Of a DNA stretch of 64,000 nt, positions 3,070 through 11,970 are shown in pieces (the first letter of the stretch is position 1; the number at the start of each line of letters is the position of its first letter). Source of the stretch: Planctomycetota bacterium (GTDB taxonomy: Bacteria; Planctomycetota; UBA1135; UBA2386); the NCBI GenBank assembly GCA_016235155.1, contig JACRLW010000071.1, forward strand, positions 20,258 through 84,257, written 5' to 3'. The position numbers and the translations under genes are program-made. Under the pieces are notes generated by a model. The model worked only from the letters and a program-made list of their open reading frames with translations. It had not been told where the DNA came from and searched no databases.

Positions 3070-3183
3070 GTGCGAGCCGACCCAGACCTGGCGATGATGG
3101 TCGAGGCGTGGGCGCGCCTGCCGAAGGCGCTTCGCGACGGGATCGTGGCGATCGTGAAGGCTGCTAGCGCTTCGTACCCTTGA
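3070..3183 (+). pseudogene. 37-codon remnant resembling the C-terminal tail of a tyrosine recombinase
   Basis: The frame from GTG encodes VRADPDLAMMVEAWARLP followed by KALRDGIVAIVKAAS. This 'DPDLAxxVEAWxxLPxxxRxGIxAxV' pattern is what I recall at the extreme C-terminus of integrases in planctomycetes and related bacteria. No recombinase catalytic region precedes it, so it would be a degraded leftover. It overlaps the 3' end of the oppositely oriented ribbon-helix-helix gene. The assignment rests on memory of a short pattern and is weak. Confidence 0.35.
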
Positions 3184-3379
3184 GCATCTGCTGCGCGCGC
3201 TCGATGCGATCACGCAAGCTGTCCTGGAACTGTCGATCGTGGGTGCGACGCTCAATGTGCTCGGTGATCGCGGCGCGAATGATCTCGGAGACGGGCTGGT
3301 TGTCGACCGTTGCTACCGTCTCCAGCTGCTCCGCTTGCTCGTTCGAGAGCCGGATCGTCATCGCTTTCGCTGGCTTCAT
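3164..3379 (-). CDS. Ribbon-helix-helix DNA-binding protein, likely autoregulator of the ubiquitin-like operon
   Basis: A 71-residue protein beginning MKPAKAMTIRLSNEQAEQLE. It has a short basic strand (AMTIRLS) and two helices (NEQAEQLETVATVD, QPVSEIIRAAITEHIERR), the ribbon-helix-helix fold of CopG/ParD/Arc-type repressors and antitoxins. A charged C-terminal helix follows. The ATG at 3379 is preferred over longer frames, which run into the divergent promoter and are not protein-like. RHH proteins bind short palindromes as dimers of dimers. A perfect palindrome lies 26 bases upstream, on the shared -35 region with the divergent operon, so autorepression and control of that operon are likely. 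No toxin partner is adjacent. Confidence 0.8.
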   Translation of the reverse strand: MKPAKAMTIRLSNEQAEQLETVATVDNQPVSEIIRAAITEHIERRTHDRQFQDSLRDRIERAQQMLKGTKR

Positions 3380-3465: not shown

Positions 3466-3777
3466 ATGAACGAATCCAACCCAGAGGCAGGCGCCCCGCA
3501 GGGAGGGCCGCATCACCACGAGTTCCAGATCCAGATTGATCGGGTCCACTACACGGTTGCGCAGGAGCGGATGACCGGATCCGAGATCCGCCGCGTACCG
3601 CCGACACCCATCGGCCCCGAGCGAGATCTCTTCGAGGTCGTCCCCGGTCATCCCGACAACAAGGTCGACGACAACGAGGTCATCGAGATCCGGAACGGGA
3701 AGCGCTTCTTCACGGCGCCTGGGACCATCAACCCGGGCTCGGTGTCCATCCATCTTCGCACGTCGGCAGAGCGATGA
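3466..3777 (+). CDS. Ubiquitin-like modifier, Multiubiquitin family, single beta-grasp domain
   Basis: A 103-residue protein. After a His-rich, flexible N-terminus (about residues 1-20), residues 22-90 form one Multiubiquitin-type beta-grasp domain. Its conserved features are FQIQIDRVHYTV, the MTGSEIRRV helix, PIGPERDLFEVVPG, and EVIEIRNGKRFFTAP followed by INPG. It is predicted to be the protein tag conjugated by the downstream E1 and E2. The C-terminus does not end in Gly-Gly; about a dozen residues follow INPG, so maturation by the operon's JAB or ClpP-fold protease is plausible. Start and GGAGG spacing are excellent. The E2 start overlaps its stop (ATGA). Confidence 0.85.
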   Translation: MNESNPEAGAPQGGPHHHEFQIQIDRVHYTVAQERMTGSEIRRVPPTPIGPERDLFEVVPGHPDNKVDDNEVIEIRNGKRFFTAPGTINPGSVSIHLRTSAER

Positions 3778-4166
3778 GCCTACCAGAAGCCGACGCACTG
3801 TACCTTGCCACTCGCGGCCTACTCCACGAGATTGCCACCGAGTCGAACATGACGTGCATCGTGTTCCGGAACTGGCAGCTTCCCCCGGGCTACGACCGCG
3901 CCTCGGCAGACCTCTTGATCCGCCTTCCTGGTGGTTATCCCGACGTCCCACCCGACATGTGGTGGATCCACCCAGGCATCAAGTTGGCTAATGGGCAAGT
4001 CATCCAGGCCACCGAAGTTGTTGAAACTCATCTCGGTCGATCCTGGCAGCGGTGGTCGCGACACTTCCAGCCGGGTCAGTGGAAGCCAGGCATCGATGGC
4101 GTTGAGAGCTTCCTTGCGTTGATCGGCCGGGAACTGCATCGCTGGGTGCCGGAGCCCGTCCGATGA
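3774..4166 (+). CDS. E2-like ubiquitin-conjugating protein (Prok-E2_E family)
   Basis: A 130-residue protein with the bacterial E2 family E pattern: WQLPPGYDRASADLLIRLP, GGYPDVPPDMWW (the 'YP..PP' core of the UBC fold), IHPGIKL, and the family-specific RSWQRWSRHFQPGQWKPG with a C-terminal helix. It should carry or position the ubiquitin-like protein between E1 and target. The only cysteine is Cys28, near the N-terminus. The place where classical E2s have the active cysteine, after the HPG turn, has none. It is translationally coupled on both sides by ATGA overlaps with the modifier and the JAB-E1 gene. Confidence 0.85.
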   Translation: MSLPEADALYLATRGLLHEIATESNMTCIVFRNWQLPPGYDRASADLLIRLPGGYPDVPPDMWWIHPGIKLANGQVIQATEVVETHLGRSWQRWSRHFQPGQWKPGIDGVESFLALIGRELHRWVPEPVR

Positions 4167-5550
4167 CCACGACGCTTGTACTTCCGCTCGAACGCTCGCC
4201 CTGCTCTGCGAGGACGCCTTCTTCGCGCTCGCCGGCACAGGGCGCCTCGACGTCGACGTCCTGCGCGCCCTCGCGGGCCGAATCCTCGAGCGGCCCGACG
4301 CGGAGTCCCCGCCGCTGCCCGACGCTGCGTACACCCTTCGCGAACCAGACGCACTCAAGATCGCGTCGGAGGGATACGTCCCCGCCCTCCAAGACGCGGA
4401 GCAAACCGGGTGTGTAGCTCTCTGGCTTCACACGCATCCTGGGATCGGTGCCTCGCCATCGCCAAGTCGCCTGGACCAGATCGTTGATCGGCAGCTCAGC
4501 GACCTCTTCCGTCTCCGTACCAGTAGCGAACTCTACGGCAGCGTCATCGTTGCCCATGACCAAGGTCAGATCATCTTCTCCGGGTTCCTTGAGAACGCAG
4601 CTGGCCGATGGCCGATCGACTACCTTTGGATAGTCGGGGATCGTTTTCGCCTTGTCTCGAACGTCGACACGACGGCGACCTCGCCGCTTCCTCATGAGTT
4701 TGATCGAAACATCCGCGCCTTCGGTGGTGATGTCCAGCAGGTCCTCCAACGCCTGCACATCGCGGTCGTCGGCTGTGGTGGCACGGGTTCGGCAGTCGCG
4801 GAACAGCTGATTCGGCTCGGCGTCCGACGGCTCACCCTTGTCGATCCTGATACCCTGTCTTTGAGCAACGTGACACGGGTCTACGGATCCACTCTTGCGA
4901 CGGTTGGTCAACCCAAGGTCTCTGTGCTTCGCGATCACCTTCGTCGTATCGTTGACGGACTCAGCATTACGTGCGCTCCCACGATGGTCACCGTGGAGCA
5001 CGCAGCTCGCCAACTCACGGATGCAGACGTCGTCTTTGGGTGCACTGACGACAACGCCGGTCGGGTCGTGTTGTCGAGGCTATCCACGTACTTCCTGCTT
5101 CCTGTCATTGACTGTGGAGTACTGCTCGAAAGCGCAACCGGTGGACGTCTCTCGGGCATCCACGGGCGTGTAACTGTACTTCACCCAGAGGCAGCCTGCC
5201 TGCTGTGCCGAGGTCGCATCGACCTCGATCGCGCGCGAACCGAGCTCTTCACTCCGTCCGAACGCACACGTCTGGAGCATGAGGGCTATGCCCCAGCCCT
5301 CGGGGCTGTCGAGCCTGCGGTTGTCGTCTACACGACCATGGTGGCCGCGGCTGCGGTAGGCGAACTTCTCGAGCGACTCATACACTACGGCCCAGAGGAT
5401 AGGCCATCGGAGATCCTACTCCGCATACACGATCGTGAAGTCTCCACGAACAACGCCCTACCCAAGCCTCGACACTACTGCCACTCCACTTCAGGGAAGC
5501 GTGGGGCAGGCTTCACTTCTCCCTTCCTGGACTTGACATGGCAGGCGTAG
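4163..5550 (+). CDS. JAB deubiquitinase-E1 (ThiF) fusion, with an apparent frameshift near its start
   Basis: The ATG in the ATGA overlap opens MTTTLVLPLE, but the conserved frame is one base back from about 4190. It then runs uninterrupted from 4192 to the stop, giving about 462 residues if joined. The first half is a JAMM/JAB metalloprotease domain: LWLHTHPG gives the His-x-His, followed by a Ser-x2-Asp 10 residues on, two longer than usual. The second half is an E1-like ThiF domain: VVGCGGTGSAV nucleotide loop, VDPDTLSLSNVTRV, GQPKV, GCTDDNAGR, one Cys-x2-Cys zinc pair (CLLC) and a degenerate second pair (HYCHS), and a terminal PFLDLTW. No cysteine is seen at the usual E1 catalytic loop. 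Without joining the frames, only a TTG start at 4861 remains and the JAB half is lost. The frameshift may be a base error. Confidence 0.8.
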
Positions 5551-5900
5551 CGCGCATCCGCTGGTGGCAGTGGATTCCTTGGCCATGGCGAGGTTGGCGC
5601 GTCATCGCAACGGTCGACGCCGGCGACGAGATACCTGCTAGTCTTCCGTACAAGTCTGCGATACTTGTGTCGCTAGGAGGAACCCCAACCTGGATCGCTT
5701 TCGACTGCCCCTGCCGACGCGGCCACCGCATCATGCTCAACCTGTATCCAGGACGATCTCCCGCATGGGCCTTGCAGGCTCACCGGCGTCTGACACTCAG
5801 CCCGAGTGTTGACGACTCCACGCGGGACCGTCGATGCCACTTCTTCCTTCGCAGGGGCATAGTAGAGTGGGCTCCCAACGGCCGGAGGCACGACACATGA
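5538..5900 (+). CDS. DUF6527 family protein of the ubiquitin-like operon
   Basis: A 120-residue protein whose start overlaps the JAB-E1 gene by 13 bases. Conserved elements are LVSLGGTPTWIAFDCPCRRGHRIMLNL (a Cys-x-Cys...His group that looks metal-binding), a TLSPSVDDS turn, and RRCHFFLRRGIVEW near the C-terminus. DUF6527 is a small family I recall beside E1/E2/ubiquitin-like genes in bacteria; its function is unknown. The context suggests an adaptor, ligase-like factor or substrate-recognition subunit, which is inference. Its stop overlaps the next start (ATGA). Confidence 0.75.
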   Translation: MAGVARIRWWQWIPWPWRGWRVIATVDAGDEIPASLPYKSAILVSLGGTPTWIAFDCPCRRGHRIMLNLYPGRSPAWALQAHRRLTLSPSVDDSTRDRRCHFFLRRGIVEWAPNGRRHDT

Positions 5901-6844
5901 CCGACCCGAATCTAGAGGGCAGCCCAGTCCCCCACGATGACCAGCAGAAGCTCGTCAGGGAGTCGGTAGTTCCACCTCCGACGAAGACACCCTTCTACCA
6001 GGCTATTCACTCCGCGCGCTACCAGCGACAAGCGATCATCAAGCGCATTCAGGAGCGAACGCATCGCAGGTTCATCTGCTACGTGTGTGGAGGACTGAGT
6101 GCGATAGACCGCGACGATACGGTTGGATTCGTCGATCTCTTGCACAACGTTGCTGAGGGCGCCGATCTCGATCTGCTCCTGCATACCGGTGGTGGAGACA
6201 TCGATGCGGCGGAGAAGCTCATCACGATGGTTCGTACGAGGGTAGGCCTCGCGGCCCTTAGAGTCATCGTTCCTGACTTCGCCAAGAGCGCCGGAACTCT
6301 CATGGTTCTGGGCGCCGATGCCGTCGTCATGAGCGATACGTCAGAGCTTGGCCCCATTGATCCCCAAGTCATCCTGGCTGATGGCAATGGCAATCGGATC
6401 CGTCACTCTGTCCAGAGCTACCTCGACGCATACGAAGAGCACACGACCACGCTCGCGAGAACCCCTCATGATATCGCCGCGCGGATCATGCTGAGCAAGC
6501 TCGACCCAGCAACCGTGAAGTTGTTCCAGGCGGTTCAGGACCGGGCGCGCAGGTTCGCGGAGGATCAGCTCACACGAGGGATGTTCCGTAAGGCTGGCAA
6601 CGCAACTAGCGCTGCAAAGGAACTGATTGACACGAAGCGATGGCAATCCCACGGTCAGATGATATCTTGGGCGGACGCATGCGACTCTCGGATTGGACTC
6701 AACGTCGAGTACCTGAAGCCAAAGTCAGATGAGTGGCAAGAGTACTGGCAACTCTACTGCATGCAACGTCTAGCCGTCGCTGATAGACAGAAGCTCTTCG
6801 AATCCGACTACGCTTCACTGCTCATCGATAGCACGTCATCGTAG
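5897..6844 (+). CDS. ClpP-fold serine protease (SppA / serine dehydrogenase proteinase-like)
   Basis: A 315-residue protein. The ATG in the ATGA overlap is preferred over a longer frame starting 63 bases earlier. The core follows the SppA/SDH-proteinase pattern: LDLLLHTGGGDIDAAE (strand plus oxyanion Gly-Gly-Gly, residues 92-106), VIVPDFAKSAGTLMVLGAD with the nucleophile Ser131 in Lys-Ser-Ala-Gly-Thr, and MSDTSELGPIDPQV after it. A helical C-terminal region with a QSHGQMI segment follows. Proteases of this kind recur in bacterial ubiquitin-like operons, where they may process the modifier precursor or remove it from targets. There is no transmembrane segment or signal peptide, so it should be cytosolic. 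It is the last gene of the operon. Confidence 0.8.
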   Translation: MTDPNLEGSPVPHDDQQKLVRESVVPPPTKTPFYQAIHSARYQRQAIIKRIQERTHRRFICYVCGGLSAIDRDDTVGFVDLLHNVAEGADLDLLLHTGGGDIDAAEKLITMVRTRVGLAALRVIVPDFAKSAGTLMVLGADAVVMSDTSELGPIDPQVILADGNGNRIRHSVQSYLDAYEEHTTTLARTPHDIAARIMLSKLDPATVKLFQAVQDRARRFAEDQLTRGMFRKAGNATSAAKELIDTKRWQSHGQMISWADACDSRIGLNVEYLKPKSDEWQEYWQLYCMQRLAVADRQKLFESDYASLLIDSTSS

Positions 6845-7437: not shown

Positions 7438-8622
7438 TCAGTGCGCGACGCGATGCAGCATGAGCACTTCCATGCTTCCCGAGCGCCCCTGTCGAACACG
7501 GTGGTACCACTTCCTGTTATGCACGCACCGTTGGATTCTCGTGGGCTCGCCTGACGGTAGCCGCAGAGGCTCGAACCCGGCTCGCTCCATCATCTCTTCG
7601 TATCGCGGCACCTGGGTGTCAGCGTCGGAGAACCCAACCAGCTGGGCGACGACAGCCTTCGGGTCGATCACACAACGAACGGAGGAGAACGCTCCTTCCA
7701 TTGTCTCGAAGTAGTTCGAAATGCCCGTGGGCGTCCTGCTTCCTGCCGTGTAGTAGCTTGCTGGCGAGCCATCCTGCAGGCCAGCGATATGGTAGGGTGC
7801 AGCAGTCTCTCTCCTTCCTTTGTACTGCCATCGGTGGTAAAGGACATGCACCCCGGGGTAGGGTGGTGATGTCAAGACGAGCTTCGGCTGGCAGTCCATG
7901 CGCATCAGTGCCCCGTGCTCATCAATCCCGACGCTTGATCGGTTGAGCAGCACCCTTCGGCCACGGATCTTGTTCTTCGCAACGCCTGCGTGTCGACATG
8001 ACATGGCGAGGTCATCCAATCCCGCGATCATCTGCTCGCCAAGGATGCGGAGCTGCTCGACGAGTCGCCTCTGTGAAGGAACCTGAGCCTCTCTGCAATC
8101 AAGCGCCCACTGTCCCAGACGCAGGATGAGGCAACGGGCGAACGCTTCCTGTCGTCGCTTGCTCAGTAGGCCGACGAGGAGCAACGCTGCGGACACAAAC
8201 CGATCGAGGCATGCCGGCATGTTGTGCACGCGCATCGGCGGAATGCGCGAAGCGAGCGACCCTGACAAGATCAGACACGCGTCATCCAGCCATCCGCGAA
8301 GCGACACCTCATCTGCCGAGCTCAGCGGCGATGTACGGACCTCGGTGACGAAGTGGGCCAGGGCGTTGATGTCCACGCCGATCATCCTTCGGCCCACGGC
8401 AAGTCCTTCGACGATCGACGTGCCTCCCCCCATGAACGGATCGAGCACCCAGTCGTTCGGCCTGCTCAGGAGCTCGATAATCGTGCGTGCGATCTCAGGC
8501 GAGAACCGAGCAGGGTAGTGGTAGAAGTCGTGCGTGAGCCCGTTGATGTAGCTCCCGGACGCCAGGCTCTCTTGAAGCCGTTGGAGGTCAGGGACGCCCC
8601 GGCTCAGGACCGCGTGCGCCAT
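7438..8622 (-). CDS. DNA methyltransferase (N6-adenine or N4-cytosine type)
   Basis: A 394-residue protein from the ATG at 8622, chosen because AAGAGG lies upstream and the conserved region starts just after it. An in-frame ATG at 8817 would add 65 poorly protein-like residues and overlap the divergent gene. The SAM-binding motif I is VLDPFMGGGTSIVEG (about residues 57-71). The catalytic motif IV is LVLTSPPYPG (about 249-258). The order I then IV, with about 180 residues between, fits an alpha- or gamma-class amino-methyltransferase. The ThDFYHYPARFSP lead-in is typical of the family. No restriction endonuclease is adjacent, so it may be an orphan or part of a defence module with the divergent ATPase. 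Confidence 0.85.
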   Translation of the reverse strand: MAHAVLSRGVPDLQRLQESLASGSYINGLTHDFYHYPARFSPEIARTIIELLSRPNDWVLDPFMGGGTSIVEGLAVGRRMIGVDINALAHFVTEVRTSPLSSADEVSLRGWLDDACLILSGSLASRIPPMRVHNMPACLDRFVSAALLLVGLLSKRRQEAFARCLILRLGQWALDCREAQVPSQRRLVEQLRILGEQMIAGLDDLAMSCRHAGVAKNKIRGRRVLLNRSSVGIDEHGALMRMDCQPKLVLTSPPYPGVHVLYHRWQYKGRRETAAPYHIAGLQDGSPASYYTAGSRTPTGISNYFETMEGAFSSVRCVIDPKAVVAQLVGFSDADTQVPRYEEMMERAGFEPLRLPSGEPTRIQRCVHNRKWYHRVRQGRSGSMEVLMLHRVAH

Positions 8623-8758
8623 CGAGTGAACCGCCTCTTGGTTGCCAACCGCCAGCCATGGTACCAGCTTGGGCACCCCCGGTTCCACCCTCCCCGAAGG
8701 AAAAACAGCGACGAAGTGAGGTCGCACCAACAACTTGCGTCGAGCCGCCCGTTTTCGC

Positions 8759-8788
8759 TTGATCTTCGCTGTAGAGTGCCTGTAGATT
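8759..8788 (+). promoter_or_regulatory. Predicted promoter giving a possibly leaderless transcript
   Basis: TTGATC, an 18-base spacer and TAGATT lie just before the ATG at 8795. A start site seven bases after the -10 would fall on the A of that ATG. No ribosome binding site is present in between. Leaderless initiation is an inference; an internal ATG at 8804 is the alternative. Confidence 0.4.
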
Positions 8789-8794
8789 CCTGGT

Positions 8795-9430
8795 ATGTCC
8801 AGGATGCGGCGCGCCACAGAAGTCCTTGCCGCAGCCGAGTCCGCGCTGCGTGACTTGATGTCAGAGGGTCTGCGCGAGAAGGCGTACGCGGAGGTGGCTG
8901 AGCTGGCAGGCCTTGCCGACGCACTCGCGAAGTTCCTGAAGGACCGCGGAACGCCGCTGCCAGCGGAACCGGAGGCTCAAGCATTGCCGCACGATGAACT
9001 GCCTCCGGCAACCTCTCCGGCTGCGCCAGCACCTGCACCATCTCGCGGAGCGAGACGACCGCTCGGAAAGCGCGACTTTCCTCGGTTCGAGCGAGACGGT
9101 GACAAGCTCGTGAAGCTCGGATGGTCCAAGAAGAACAGGGCGCAGTACGAGCACAAGGCGCCGCGTCCAGCCGTTGTTGCTGTGGTCCAGCAGATGGCAC
9201 GCGTCGTCAAACCAGATCATGTGTTTGGAATCGAGTCGCTGCTCCCGGTGACCGACGCCGCTGGTGAGGAAGTCCCAGGGTACCAGGTCTACTTGACGAT
9301 GGCGTGGTTGCGCAGCCTTGGCGCCGTGCAGAAGAAAGGGCGTGATGGGTATGTCGTGCGCAAGCATGCCGCCACGAATGGAGCATTCGACGACGTCTGG
9401 GGCCGCGTATCTGCAAAGAGTCTGGGATAG
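8795..9430 (+). CDS. Unknown protein preceding the GHKL ATPase
   Basis: A 211-residue protein in three parts. There is an N-terminal helical segment (residues 1-50, TEVLAAAESALRDLMSEGL), a Pro/Ala-rich linker (about 60-85), and a C-terminal domain of about 120 residues beginning RRPLGKRDFPRFERDGDKLV and ending with a helix-turn-strand pattern (VYLTMAWLRSLGAV, GRDGYVVRKHA). I do not recognise the family; the C-terminal part could be winged-helix-like. It ends eight bases before the ATPase gene, whose ribosome binding site overlaps its stop codon, so the two are coupled. Confidence 0.7.
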   Translation: MSRMRRATEVLAAAESALRDLMSEGLREKAYAEVAELAGLADALAKFLKDRGTPLPAEPEAQALPHDELPPATSPAAPAPAPSRGARRPLGKRDFPRFERDGDKLVKLGWSKKNRAQYEHKAPRPAVVAVVQQMARVVKPDHVFGIESLLPVTDAAGEEVPGYQVYLTMAWLRSLGAVQKKGRDGYVVRKHAATNGAFDDVWGRVSAKSLG

Positions 9431-9438
9431 GAGCCACC

Positions 9439-11970
9439 ATGCAGATCAAGACCAACGAGGAGAAAAGGGACTTTGCGCTCCGGTTGCTCAAGGCAGACCG
9501 CGAGGAGGAGGTGGTGAGGATCCTGGAGGAGGCCGGGTTGTGGGGCGACTCGGCGAGCTGGCGGCTGCTCGGTGACGACGAGAACAACTTCAAGACGGTT
9601 GGAGCCCAGCAGGCGAGGCCTGAACCTGCGCTGGTGGAGAAGCTCATCAACTGCGTCGATGCACGGCTGATGGCAGAGTGTATTCGCGCTGGTGTCGCTC
9701 CGGATAGCACCCAGGCACCGAAGTCGATCAATGAGGCGCGGACTCGGTTCTTCAGCTCAACCAGCAGGACAGAGTTGGCGAAGGGCATCACGATGGCGAT
9801 CACCGGCGCCCGGTCGCAGCAAGACGGCATGCCGTGTCTCACCATCTGCGACACCGGTGAGGGACAAACGCCTGAAAGTGTGCCCGACACGTTCATGTCC
9901 ATCGACAAGAAGAACAAGCTGCGCATCCCATTCGTCCAGGGGAAGTTCAACATGGGCGGCACGGGTGCTCTGCAGTTCTGCGGACGCAAGAAGCTCCAGC
10001 TCCTCATCACGCGCCGCGATCCGAGCATCGCCGCGCAGCAGCGCTCGAAGCACGAGAGCGACGCATGCTGGTCGGTGACCATCCTCCGGCGCGAGACTCC
10101 ACCCGAGGGGCCTGGCCAGGTTCGGAACCCGTACTTCAAGTACCTTGCGCCGGTCGGTGCCGTCGCGACACCTAGCCGAGGGGCTGTCCTCTCCTTCCAC
10201 GCCAAGAGCCTCCCGCTCATGCCAGAGGACAATCGACCCTACACGCGGCACATGGAATGGGGATCCTGCATCAAGCTCTACGAGTACGACGTGCAAGGGT
10301 TCAAGGGTCACATCCTCCGCAAAGGCGGACTGCTGCCGCGACTCGAGATCCTCCTGCCGGAAGTCGCGCTGCCCATCCGGGCGCACGAGTGTCGCGAGGG
10401 GTTCAAGGGTCACGCCGGAAGCTTCGACACGAACCTCGTTGGCCTCCGAGCCCGCCTCGAGGACAGCAAGAGCGACAGCTTGGAGGACGGCTATCCGGCG
10501 TCGCTGACGCTCAACGTCCAGGGCCAACTAATGGTTGCGCGCATCTACGCGTTCAAGGGGGACAACGCCGACAGCTACCGGGCAGACCAGGGAGTCGTCT
10601 TCACCATCAACGGGCAGACGCATGGGTGGTTTCCCAAGTCGTTCTTTGAGCGCAAGGGCGTGAAGATGGGGCGACTCGCCAAGTCCCTGCTCGTGGTTGT
10701 CGACTGCACTGACATCTCCGTCGAGTCGCGCGCGGACCTCTTCAAGAACAGCCGCGACCGACTGAGCGGCGGTAGCCTCCGACGGGACATCGAAGAGGAG
10801 ATGGAGTCGCAGATTGCGAACCACCCCGGGCTTCGGGAGTTGAGGGAACGCAGGCGACGCGAGGAAGTCTCTGAGAAGCTCAGCGAGGCGAAGCCTCTCG
10901 AGGACGTCCTGAGGCAGATCCTGAAGACATCACCGAGCCTTTCCAGACTCTTCCTCCAGGGCCAGCGCCTGAACTCCCCCTACCGGTCCCAGGAAAATGG
11001 GCAGACCTCAGGCGGCCAGGGCGGCACCGAAGGGCACCCTCCGGTTTTCAAGGGAAAGCGTCACCCCACGTTTTTCCACTTCGAGAAGCACAAGCCAGGG
11101 GAGGCGCTTCAGCGCACGACCGAGCACGGCCGCAGATGCAGGTTCCGGTTCGTCACGGACGTCGAGAACGATTACTTCAGCAGAGACCGAGAACGAGGGC
11201 GGTACCATGTCGAGGTCGTTGACGGTCCACTTGAGGGACGGGAACTGACCACGAGCATCAACCTCTTCAACGGTGTCGCGAACTGGAGTGTGACGATCCC
11301 CGAGGACGAGTCCGCGCCAGGCGACGTGTTCGCTCTGCAGTTGACCGTGATGGACGACACGCTCCCCCAGCCATTCGTGAGCATCGCGCACGTGACACTC
11401 GCGGAGAAGTCGGAGAAGCCCGGTGGCAAGACGCATACCAAGAAGGAGAAGGCAACCGGCGACACGCCGGAGACCGACAATGCCGGCGCCGAGAAGGGAG
11501 AAAAGGGCAAAGGTGATGGCGAGCCGCCGACCGGCATTCAAATCCCGCGGATTCACAAGGTGCACAAAGCTGAGTGGAGTGAACGCCAGTTTGACGAGCA
11601 CTCTGCGTGCACCATCATCGAGGAGGGCGACGAGAGCCAGAGTTCCTTCGAGTTCTACGTCAACGTCGACAACGTGTTTCTCAAGACCGACCTGAAGCAA
11701 GGTGACGGTGACCCTGCTGTGGTCGAAGCCAAGTTCGTGTACGGCAACGTCCTCCTCGCCCTTGCGTTGATTCACGATCAGCGATCAACCAGCGGCCGCA
11801 AGCCCAAGGCGCAAGAGGCTGAGGGCAACGAGGATGAACCATCCATCCGCGAACTCGTCGAACGTACGACCAGAGCTGCAGCTCCCTTTCTGGTTCCGAT
11901 GATCGATTACCTCGGCTCACTCGACTCCGATGCGGTGTCGCAGCTCGCCCAGACCGGGGATGAGGAGTGA
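9439..11970 (+). CDS. Large GHKL-type (Bergerat fold) ATPase
   Basis: An 843-residue protein with AGGAG five bases before its ATG. The ATP-binding fold shared by Hsp90, MutL, gyrase B and histidine kinases is clear. The N box has Glu67, Asn71 and Asp74 (VEKLINCVDA), the G1 box is CDTGEG (137-142), and the G2 region is KFNMGGTGAL (169-178). Residues about 180-450 form a transducer-like region. A Gln/Gly-rich linker follows near 515-530, then a beta-rich segment, a Lys/Glu-rich linker (about 655-695) and a final alpha/beta region. There is no kinase or topoisomerase domain. With the divergent methyltransferase it resembles DNA-modification-linked defence loci, but I cannot match a named system. 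Confidence 0.8.
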   Translation: MQIKTNEEKRDFALRLLKADREEEVVRILEEAGLWGDSASWRLLGDDENNFKTVGAQQARPEPALVEKLINCVDARLMAECIRAGVAPDSTQAPKSINEARTRFFSSTSRTELAKGITMAITGARSQQDGMPCLTICDTGEGQTPESVPDTFMSIDKKNKLRIPFVQGKFNMGGTGALQFCGRKKLQLLITRRDPSIAAQQRSKHESDACWSVTILRRETPPEGPGQVRNPYFKYLAPVGAVATPSRGAVLSFHAKSLPLMPEDNRPYTRHMEWGSCIKLYEYDVQGFKGHILRKGGLLPRLEILLPEVALPIRAHECREGFKGHAGSFDTNLVGLRARLEDSKSDSLEDGYPASLTLNVQGQLMVARIYAFKGDNADSYRADQGVVFTINGQTHGWFPKSFFERKGVKMGRLAKSLLVVVDCTDISVESRADLFKNSRDRLSGGSLRRDIEEEMESQIANHPGLRELRERRRREEVSEKLSEAKPLEDVLRQILKTSPSLSRLFLQGQRLNSPYRSQENGQTSGGQGGTEGHPPVFKGKRHPTFFHFEKHKPGEALQRTTEHGRRCRFRFVTDVENDYFSRDRERGRYHVEVVDGPLEGRELTTSINLFNGVANWSVTIPEDESAPGDVFALQLTVMDDTLPQPFVSIAHVTLAEKSEKPGGKTHTKKEKATGDTPETDNAGAEKGEKGKGDGEPPTGIQIPRIHKVHKAEWSERQFDEHSACTIIEEGDESQSSFEFYVNVDNVFLKTDLKQGDGDPAVVEAKFVYGNVLLALALIHDQRSTSGRKPKAQEAEGNEDEPSIRELVERTTRAAAPFLVPMIDYLGSLDSDAVSQLAQTGDEE

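Follow-up and report, generated by a model that had tools for sequence, protein, structure and literature searches.

In this analysis, we sought to determine how a bacterial operon that encodes a ubiquitin-like modifier, an E2-like protein and an E1 could operate when neither enzyme carries a cysteine at the classical position. The locus lies in a 64,000-nucleotide stretch of a Planctomycetota genome (hereafter the window, whose positions are used throughout), and a sequence-only reading of it had proposed that the thioesters known from eukaryotes are replaced by another acyl intermediate or by a non-covalent relay. We find that the locus is a member of the known Bub system (class 6e), an identity which that reading had not recognized, and that oxyesters in place of thioesters would be the best reading of its chemistry, one that has already been published. 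The idea of a non-thioester pathway is therefore right but not new, since the locus belongs to a described system.

Six genes are clustered here. On the forward strand, a modifier with a single beta-grasp domain (BubA-like Ubl; 3466-3777, PF14452) is followed by an E2-like protein (BubB-like, Prok-E2_E; 3774-4166), identified by PF14462, conservation and a model match to chain C of PDB 9EAE, and by a JAB/JAMM protease fused to a ThiF-type E1 (BubCD-like; 4163-5550), identified by PF00899, a BubCD match and conservation. A DUF6527 protein (5538-5900; PF20137, E 6.7e-19) and a ClpP-like serine protease of the SDH type (5897-6844; PF01972, E 5.5e-13) complete the series, and the ends of these five genes overlap. 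Divergent from them, on the minus strand, a ribbon-helix-helix (RHH) gene (CopG/DUF6290-like; 3164-3379, PF19807 at E 4.8e-7 and PF01402) encodes 71 amino acids from an ATG at 3379; its product is likely a regulator or antitoxin-like, and the gene occupies the same position in four relatives (L002, L004, L005 and L006). The gene order of the window operon recurs in four plasmid relatives (L002-L005), among them an intact operon on a Methylocystis bryophila plasmid (L004), and no PADLOC model fits the Ubl, E2, DUF6527 or ClpP-like protein.

In L002-L005, the Ubl gene is preceded at 0.3-1.5 kb by a gene of the Fic family and a small partner gene. No such pair was seen in the window; a short PLD-domain ORF at 2610-2972 is similar to the C-terminal region of DISARM DrmC, though its E of 5e-9 misses the cut-off by far, and is probably a remnant. 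A small defence island may be present here, as an N6/N4 DNA methyltransferase-like gene (7438-8817, minus strand; PF01555) adjoins the operon. Further out, an 843-residue ORF (9439-11970) has no match in Pfam, NCBIfam or PADLOC, and an ORF at 1-903, open towards the window start, is similar to a portion of a family-A DNA polymerase, its best E of 1e-6 again falling well short of the cut-off.

The nearest solved proteins are BubB and BubCD of the Bub (bacterial ubiquitination-like) pathway of Citrobacter (PDB 9EA4, 9EA5, 9EA8, 9EAE and 9EAV); identity between the solved proteins and those of the window is 22-33%. Both systems have a Ubl, a Ser-type E2, a JAB domain fused to an E1 with the same loop Tyr, DUF6527, and a modifier that ends at a single glycine. 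They differ in that Ubl and E2 are separate single-domain genes in the window, whereas Citrobacter Bub has a fused protein of three Ubl domains and the E2; moreover, the modifier ends in INPG plus a tail rather than NNG, the E1 keeps its zinc-type cysteines, the upstream gene is RHH instead of capK/capS, and the window has an extra ClpP-like gene. Class 6e polyUbl operons were predicted by Iyer, Burroughs and Aravind in 2006, who noted the missing E2 cysteine and took it as inactivity; their components match those of the window, namely a Ubl, a Cys-less E2/RWD-like protein, a JAB-E1 fusion and a small metal-binding protein (DUF6527), which was then called a Zn-finger protein (PMC1779556). The operons of that description have two or three Ubl, compared with one in the window, and no ClpP-like gene is mentioned (PMC1779556). 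Bub is now a named family with 544 identified operons, for which, according to its authors, phage protection is not demonstrated (PMC13373217). The folds also resemble those of the eukaryotic ubiquitin and UFM1 cascades (UBA1, UBA5, UBE2), with Z about 24-26 for the E1 and about 8-9.5 for the E2; unlike those cascades, however, the window has no catalytic cysteine at the E2 site or in the E1 loop or Cys domain and no di-glycine end, and it holds a Ser, a Tyr and a single Gly in their place.

Conservation was assessed in a set of 95 loci, comprising the window, 13 plasmid loci, 80 loci from a genome scan and one viral contig. Because the retrieval pattern of the first search contained WSRH, conservation of the E2 Ser was also assessed among loci retrieved by Pfam profile from the family of the window and from four phylum samples, which gave 47 alignable loci, three of them repeating earlier loci. 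One genome collection alone held 436 E2 relatives, so the cysteine-free pattern is not due to chance. The E2 or operon occurs in 3 of 34 genomes of the same family, in 16 of 392 in the phylum and in about 2 to 4% of those in three other phyla, and relatives are present in 99 plasmid records; this patchy distribution, together with the plasmid records, indicates that the operon is mobile. No such E2 was found in the phage records searched, and IMG/VR yielded one fragment only.

The modifier (103 residues; PF14452 Multi_ubiq, E 4.6e-4, below the curated cut-off) had been described as lacking Gly-Gly and ending about a dozen residues past INPG, and this is what it does: its C-terminus reads ...TINPG-SVSIHLRTSAER, a 12-residue tail without a di-glycine that follows the conserved Gly91 of INPG (3736-3738). 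As in Bub/class 6e, a single conserved Gly marks the end of the modifier in its relatives, within INPG, LNPG, VNPG, VTPG, ITPG, TTEG or NNG. Some of these Ubl end exactly at TTEG, others have TTEG or NNG at the junction of fused Ubl-E2 proteins, and the last residue of Citrobacter BubA in the PDB is a single Gly, Gly229. Where the motif is [ILV][NT]PG (68 loci), the Gly is never the last residue, and the unconserved stretch after it is 1 to 25 residues long. Given the conserved single Gly and the variable tail, the tail of the window modifier looks like a propeptide, probably one that the fused JAB domain trims.

In the E2 (PF14462 Prok-E2_E, E 8.2e-38), the residue that stands out is Ser95 (4056-4058), the candidate nucleophile, within the motif (W/Y)QRWSRH: both this Ser and the His two residues on (His97, 4062-4064) are present in 95 of 95 loci. 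In the Pfam-profile sample (n=47) the position is Ser in 43, Cys in three (L106, L108, L111) and Asn in one with an interrupted frame. A column that holds Ser with a few Cys fits what would be expected of a nucleophile site, and it departs from inactive E2s of the RWD/UEV kind, which have no conserved nucleophile at the active-site position. The three Cys-type members are themselves of note, as they carry Prok-E2_E with Cys in place of the WSRH Ser and lack the His, and two of them (L106, L111) keep the E1 loop Tyr. An AlphaFold2 model of the window E2 (pLDDT 93.8) matches BubB (9EAE chain C) with TM 0.89 and Z 20.0, and canonical E2s with Z 8 to 9.5; in it, Ser95 lies at a strand end, 15 residues before the last helix. 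When the profile of the Bub E2 family was compared with that of four E2s from eukaryotes, only YP..PP and the Trp after the active site aligned, and Ser95 was not placed. That Cys28 (3855-3857) is the sole cysteine of the protein, as the sequence-only reading had it, holds true; the model places it in the second strand (residues 26-35). Were it the conserved catalytic residue of the family, alignment should have shown it, and did not: position 28 is Cys in 49 of 95 loci and Gly, Asn, Ala or another residue in the other 46. As a catalytic residue Cys28 was rejected on these grounds and for its location inside the sheet.

The JAB/E1 fusion is likewise conserved at its predicted active sites. The JAMM residues (His at 4429-4431 and 4435-4437, Ser at 4465-4467, Asp at 4474-4476) are present in 94 of 94 loci, and in 93 of 93 alignable loci of the 95 a Tyr (5287-5289) occupies the E1 catalytic loop, which leads into the last helix of the adenylation domain. 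It had been noted that the E1 shows no cysteine in the usual loop, and we concur: its cysteines lie in FGCTDD, CLLC and HYC, and none is in that loop. The search for a conserved E1 cysteine at the adenylate did return one, that of FGCTDD, which is invariant and sits in the nucleotide-pocket strand; MoeB has DCTDN at the same position, and hence a cysteine there too. As a catalytic residue it was rejected, given its strand location and the Tyr at the loop position. A model of the JAB+E1 part (pLDDT 88.1) matches BubCD with Z 40.5 and ThiF, MoeB and UBA5 with Z about 26, and the window Tyr aligns with BubCD Tyr370. This residue is Phe370 in 9EAV, an E1-E2-Ubl complex of BubCD(D104A/Y370F), BubB and BubA(155-229), for which the depositors combined Y370F with a JAB mutation.

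Taken as a whole, we consider it very probable that this is a Bub (class 6e) operon with the proposed oxyester path through the E1 Tyr and E2 Ser95. The JAB domain would trim the modifier after Gly91, the E1 would adenylate the new C-terminus, and the acyl group would pass to the catalytic-loop Tyr of the E1 and then to E2 Ser95, helped by His97, before reaching the target; DUF6527, perhaps with the ClpP-like protease, may remove the modifier or act downstream. In an abstract, Ye et al. 2026 (Nat Struct Mol Biol) reportedly state that the Bub enzymes act entirely via oxyester intermediates. Gene content and order, predicted folds and the conserved Gly, Tyr, Ser-x-His and JAMM residues are observed for the window, and solved or published relatives supply the E1-E2-Ubl complex, the oxyester chemistry and the evidence that the Tyr is important. 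Since the E1 Tyr persists in two loci whose E2 is of the Cys type, this residue may have another role, and is not by itself proof of the mechanism. Conservation, the structure match and the solved relatives support replacement of the thioesters by another acyl intermediate, and a non-covalent relay is not needed. The purpose of the operon may be a response to stress or phage.

Other explanations account less well for these observations. That the E2 is an inactive, RWD-like scaffold for Ubl binding, with the modifier only adenylated and passed on without a covalent E2 intermediate, was the conclusion of Iyer et al. 2006 (PMC1779556) from the missing cysteine, and the fold also matches UEV/TSG101 domains (Z about 8); we judge it improbable, because binding alone would require neither the invariant Ser and His nor the replacement of that Ser by Cys in three distant members. 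Still harder to sustain is a thioester on Cys28 or on an E1 cysteine in the window's own branch. Although 39 of the 55 operons that carry the ClpP-like gene have Cys28 and the FGCTDD cysteine is invariant, the former gives way to Ala, Asn or Ser in 16 close relatives whose operons are intact and lies inside the sheet, and the latter belongs to the adenylate pocket strand. An equally remote prospect is sulfur carriage as in MoeB/ThiF systems, where the single glycine would bear a thiocarboxylate: the lone C-terminal glycine, the ThiF/MoeB-like E1 with its CxxC and the JAB domain would all suit it, yet the operon has no rhodanese or other sulfur enzyme, the E2 is always present, and the BubCD structures hold E1, E2 and Ubl together.

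A separate matter, compatible with the Bub explanation for the family, is whether the window copy is decaying and no longer functional. A break interrupts the JAB/E1 frame somewhere in roughly its first 60 codons (4163-4350), with an open frame from about 4195 and no ATG, GTG or TTG in it before 4861; the interval 4163-5550 spans 1388 bases, one fewer than the 1389 of L002-L004, and the match of the ORF to the E1 profile begins at column 54. On a Microbacterium plasmid (L006), the E1 and ClpP-like frames are broken too. On the other hand, the source assembly is a draft of 152 contigs, so a one-base error, and with it an assembly origin of the frameshift, is possible, and no damage is seen in the remaining core frames or in any active-site codon. 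We therefore regard decay as a serious possibility, if not the favored one.

Regarding the two downstream genes, DUF6527 has an invariant Ser90 (5805-5807) and His101 (5838-5840), the Ser and His being found in 93 of 93 loci, and two of its putative metal cysteines are not invariant, most of these cysteines being missing in one relative (L011). The Bub paper is said to describe a Ser-His protease in Bub operons; the invariant residues agree with this, and DUF6527 is a probable candidate for it. Neither DUF6527 nor the ClpP-like protein has a solved relative by sequence, the Citrobacter DUF6527 giving only a weak, chance-like match. The ClpP-like protein exceeds the Pfam cut-off for PF01972 but falls below the NCBIfam equivalog cut-off for Clp_like_SDH, so it is, as judged from these profiles, a divergent member of the SDH type; it has the SDH_protease domain and a putative nucleophile, the Ser of AKSAGT (6287-6289), which is invariant in 55 of 55. 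The gene lies 3' of DUF6527 in the window and 54 further loci (L002-L006, L015-L028 and others), where PGAP calls it hypothetical. All of these 55 operons, out of 95, have DMWW in the E2, and the gene occurs in none of the 31 operons without WW; some absences are explained by contig ends. Of the carriers, 54 entered the E1 tree, and all of them group in a single clade of 61 members that has support of 100/100 and spans several phyla. Outside the main Bub paper, the literature searched contains no description of a ClpP-like link to Bub operons, and the presence of the gene in 54 of 61 members of one Bub clade is apparently the only undescribed part of the system. We tentatively propose, while thinking it less likely than not, that this clade is a distinct Bub subtype with a dedicated ClpP/SDH-type protease, in which the modifier is always a precursor (PG plus tail) and Ubl conjugates made through oxyesters would be coupled to a private protease, as a bacterial analogue of ubiquitin-dependent proteolysis.

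Altogether, a cysteine-free layout with an E1 Tyr, an E2 Ser-x-His and a single-glycine modifier is found in about 95 operons from around ten phyla and not in Citrobacter alone; to the described system the window contributes one member, a broad test of conservation and a candidate protease-linked subtype. The natural Ser/Cys series at one E2 position allows a test of how oxyester and thioester relays interconvert, and the protease-linked clade is a defined group in which to ask if ubiquitin-like tags lead to degradation in bacteria.
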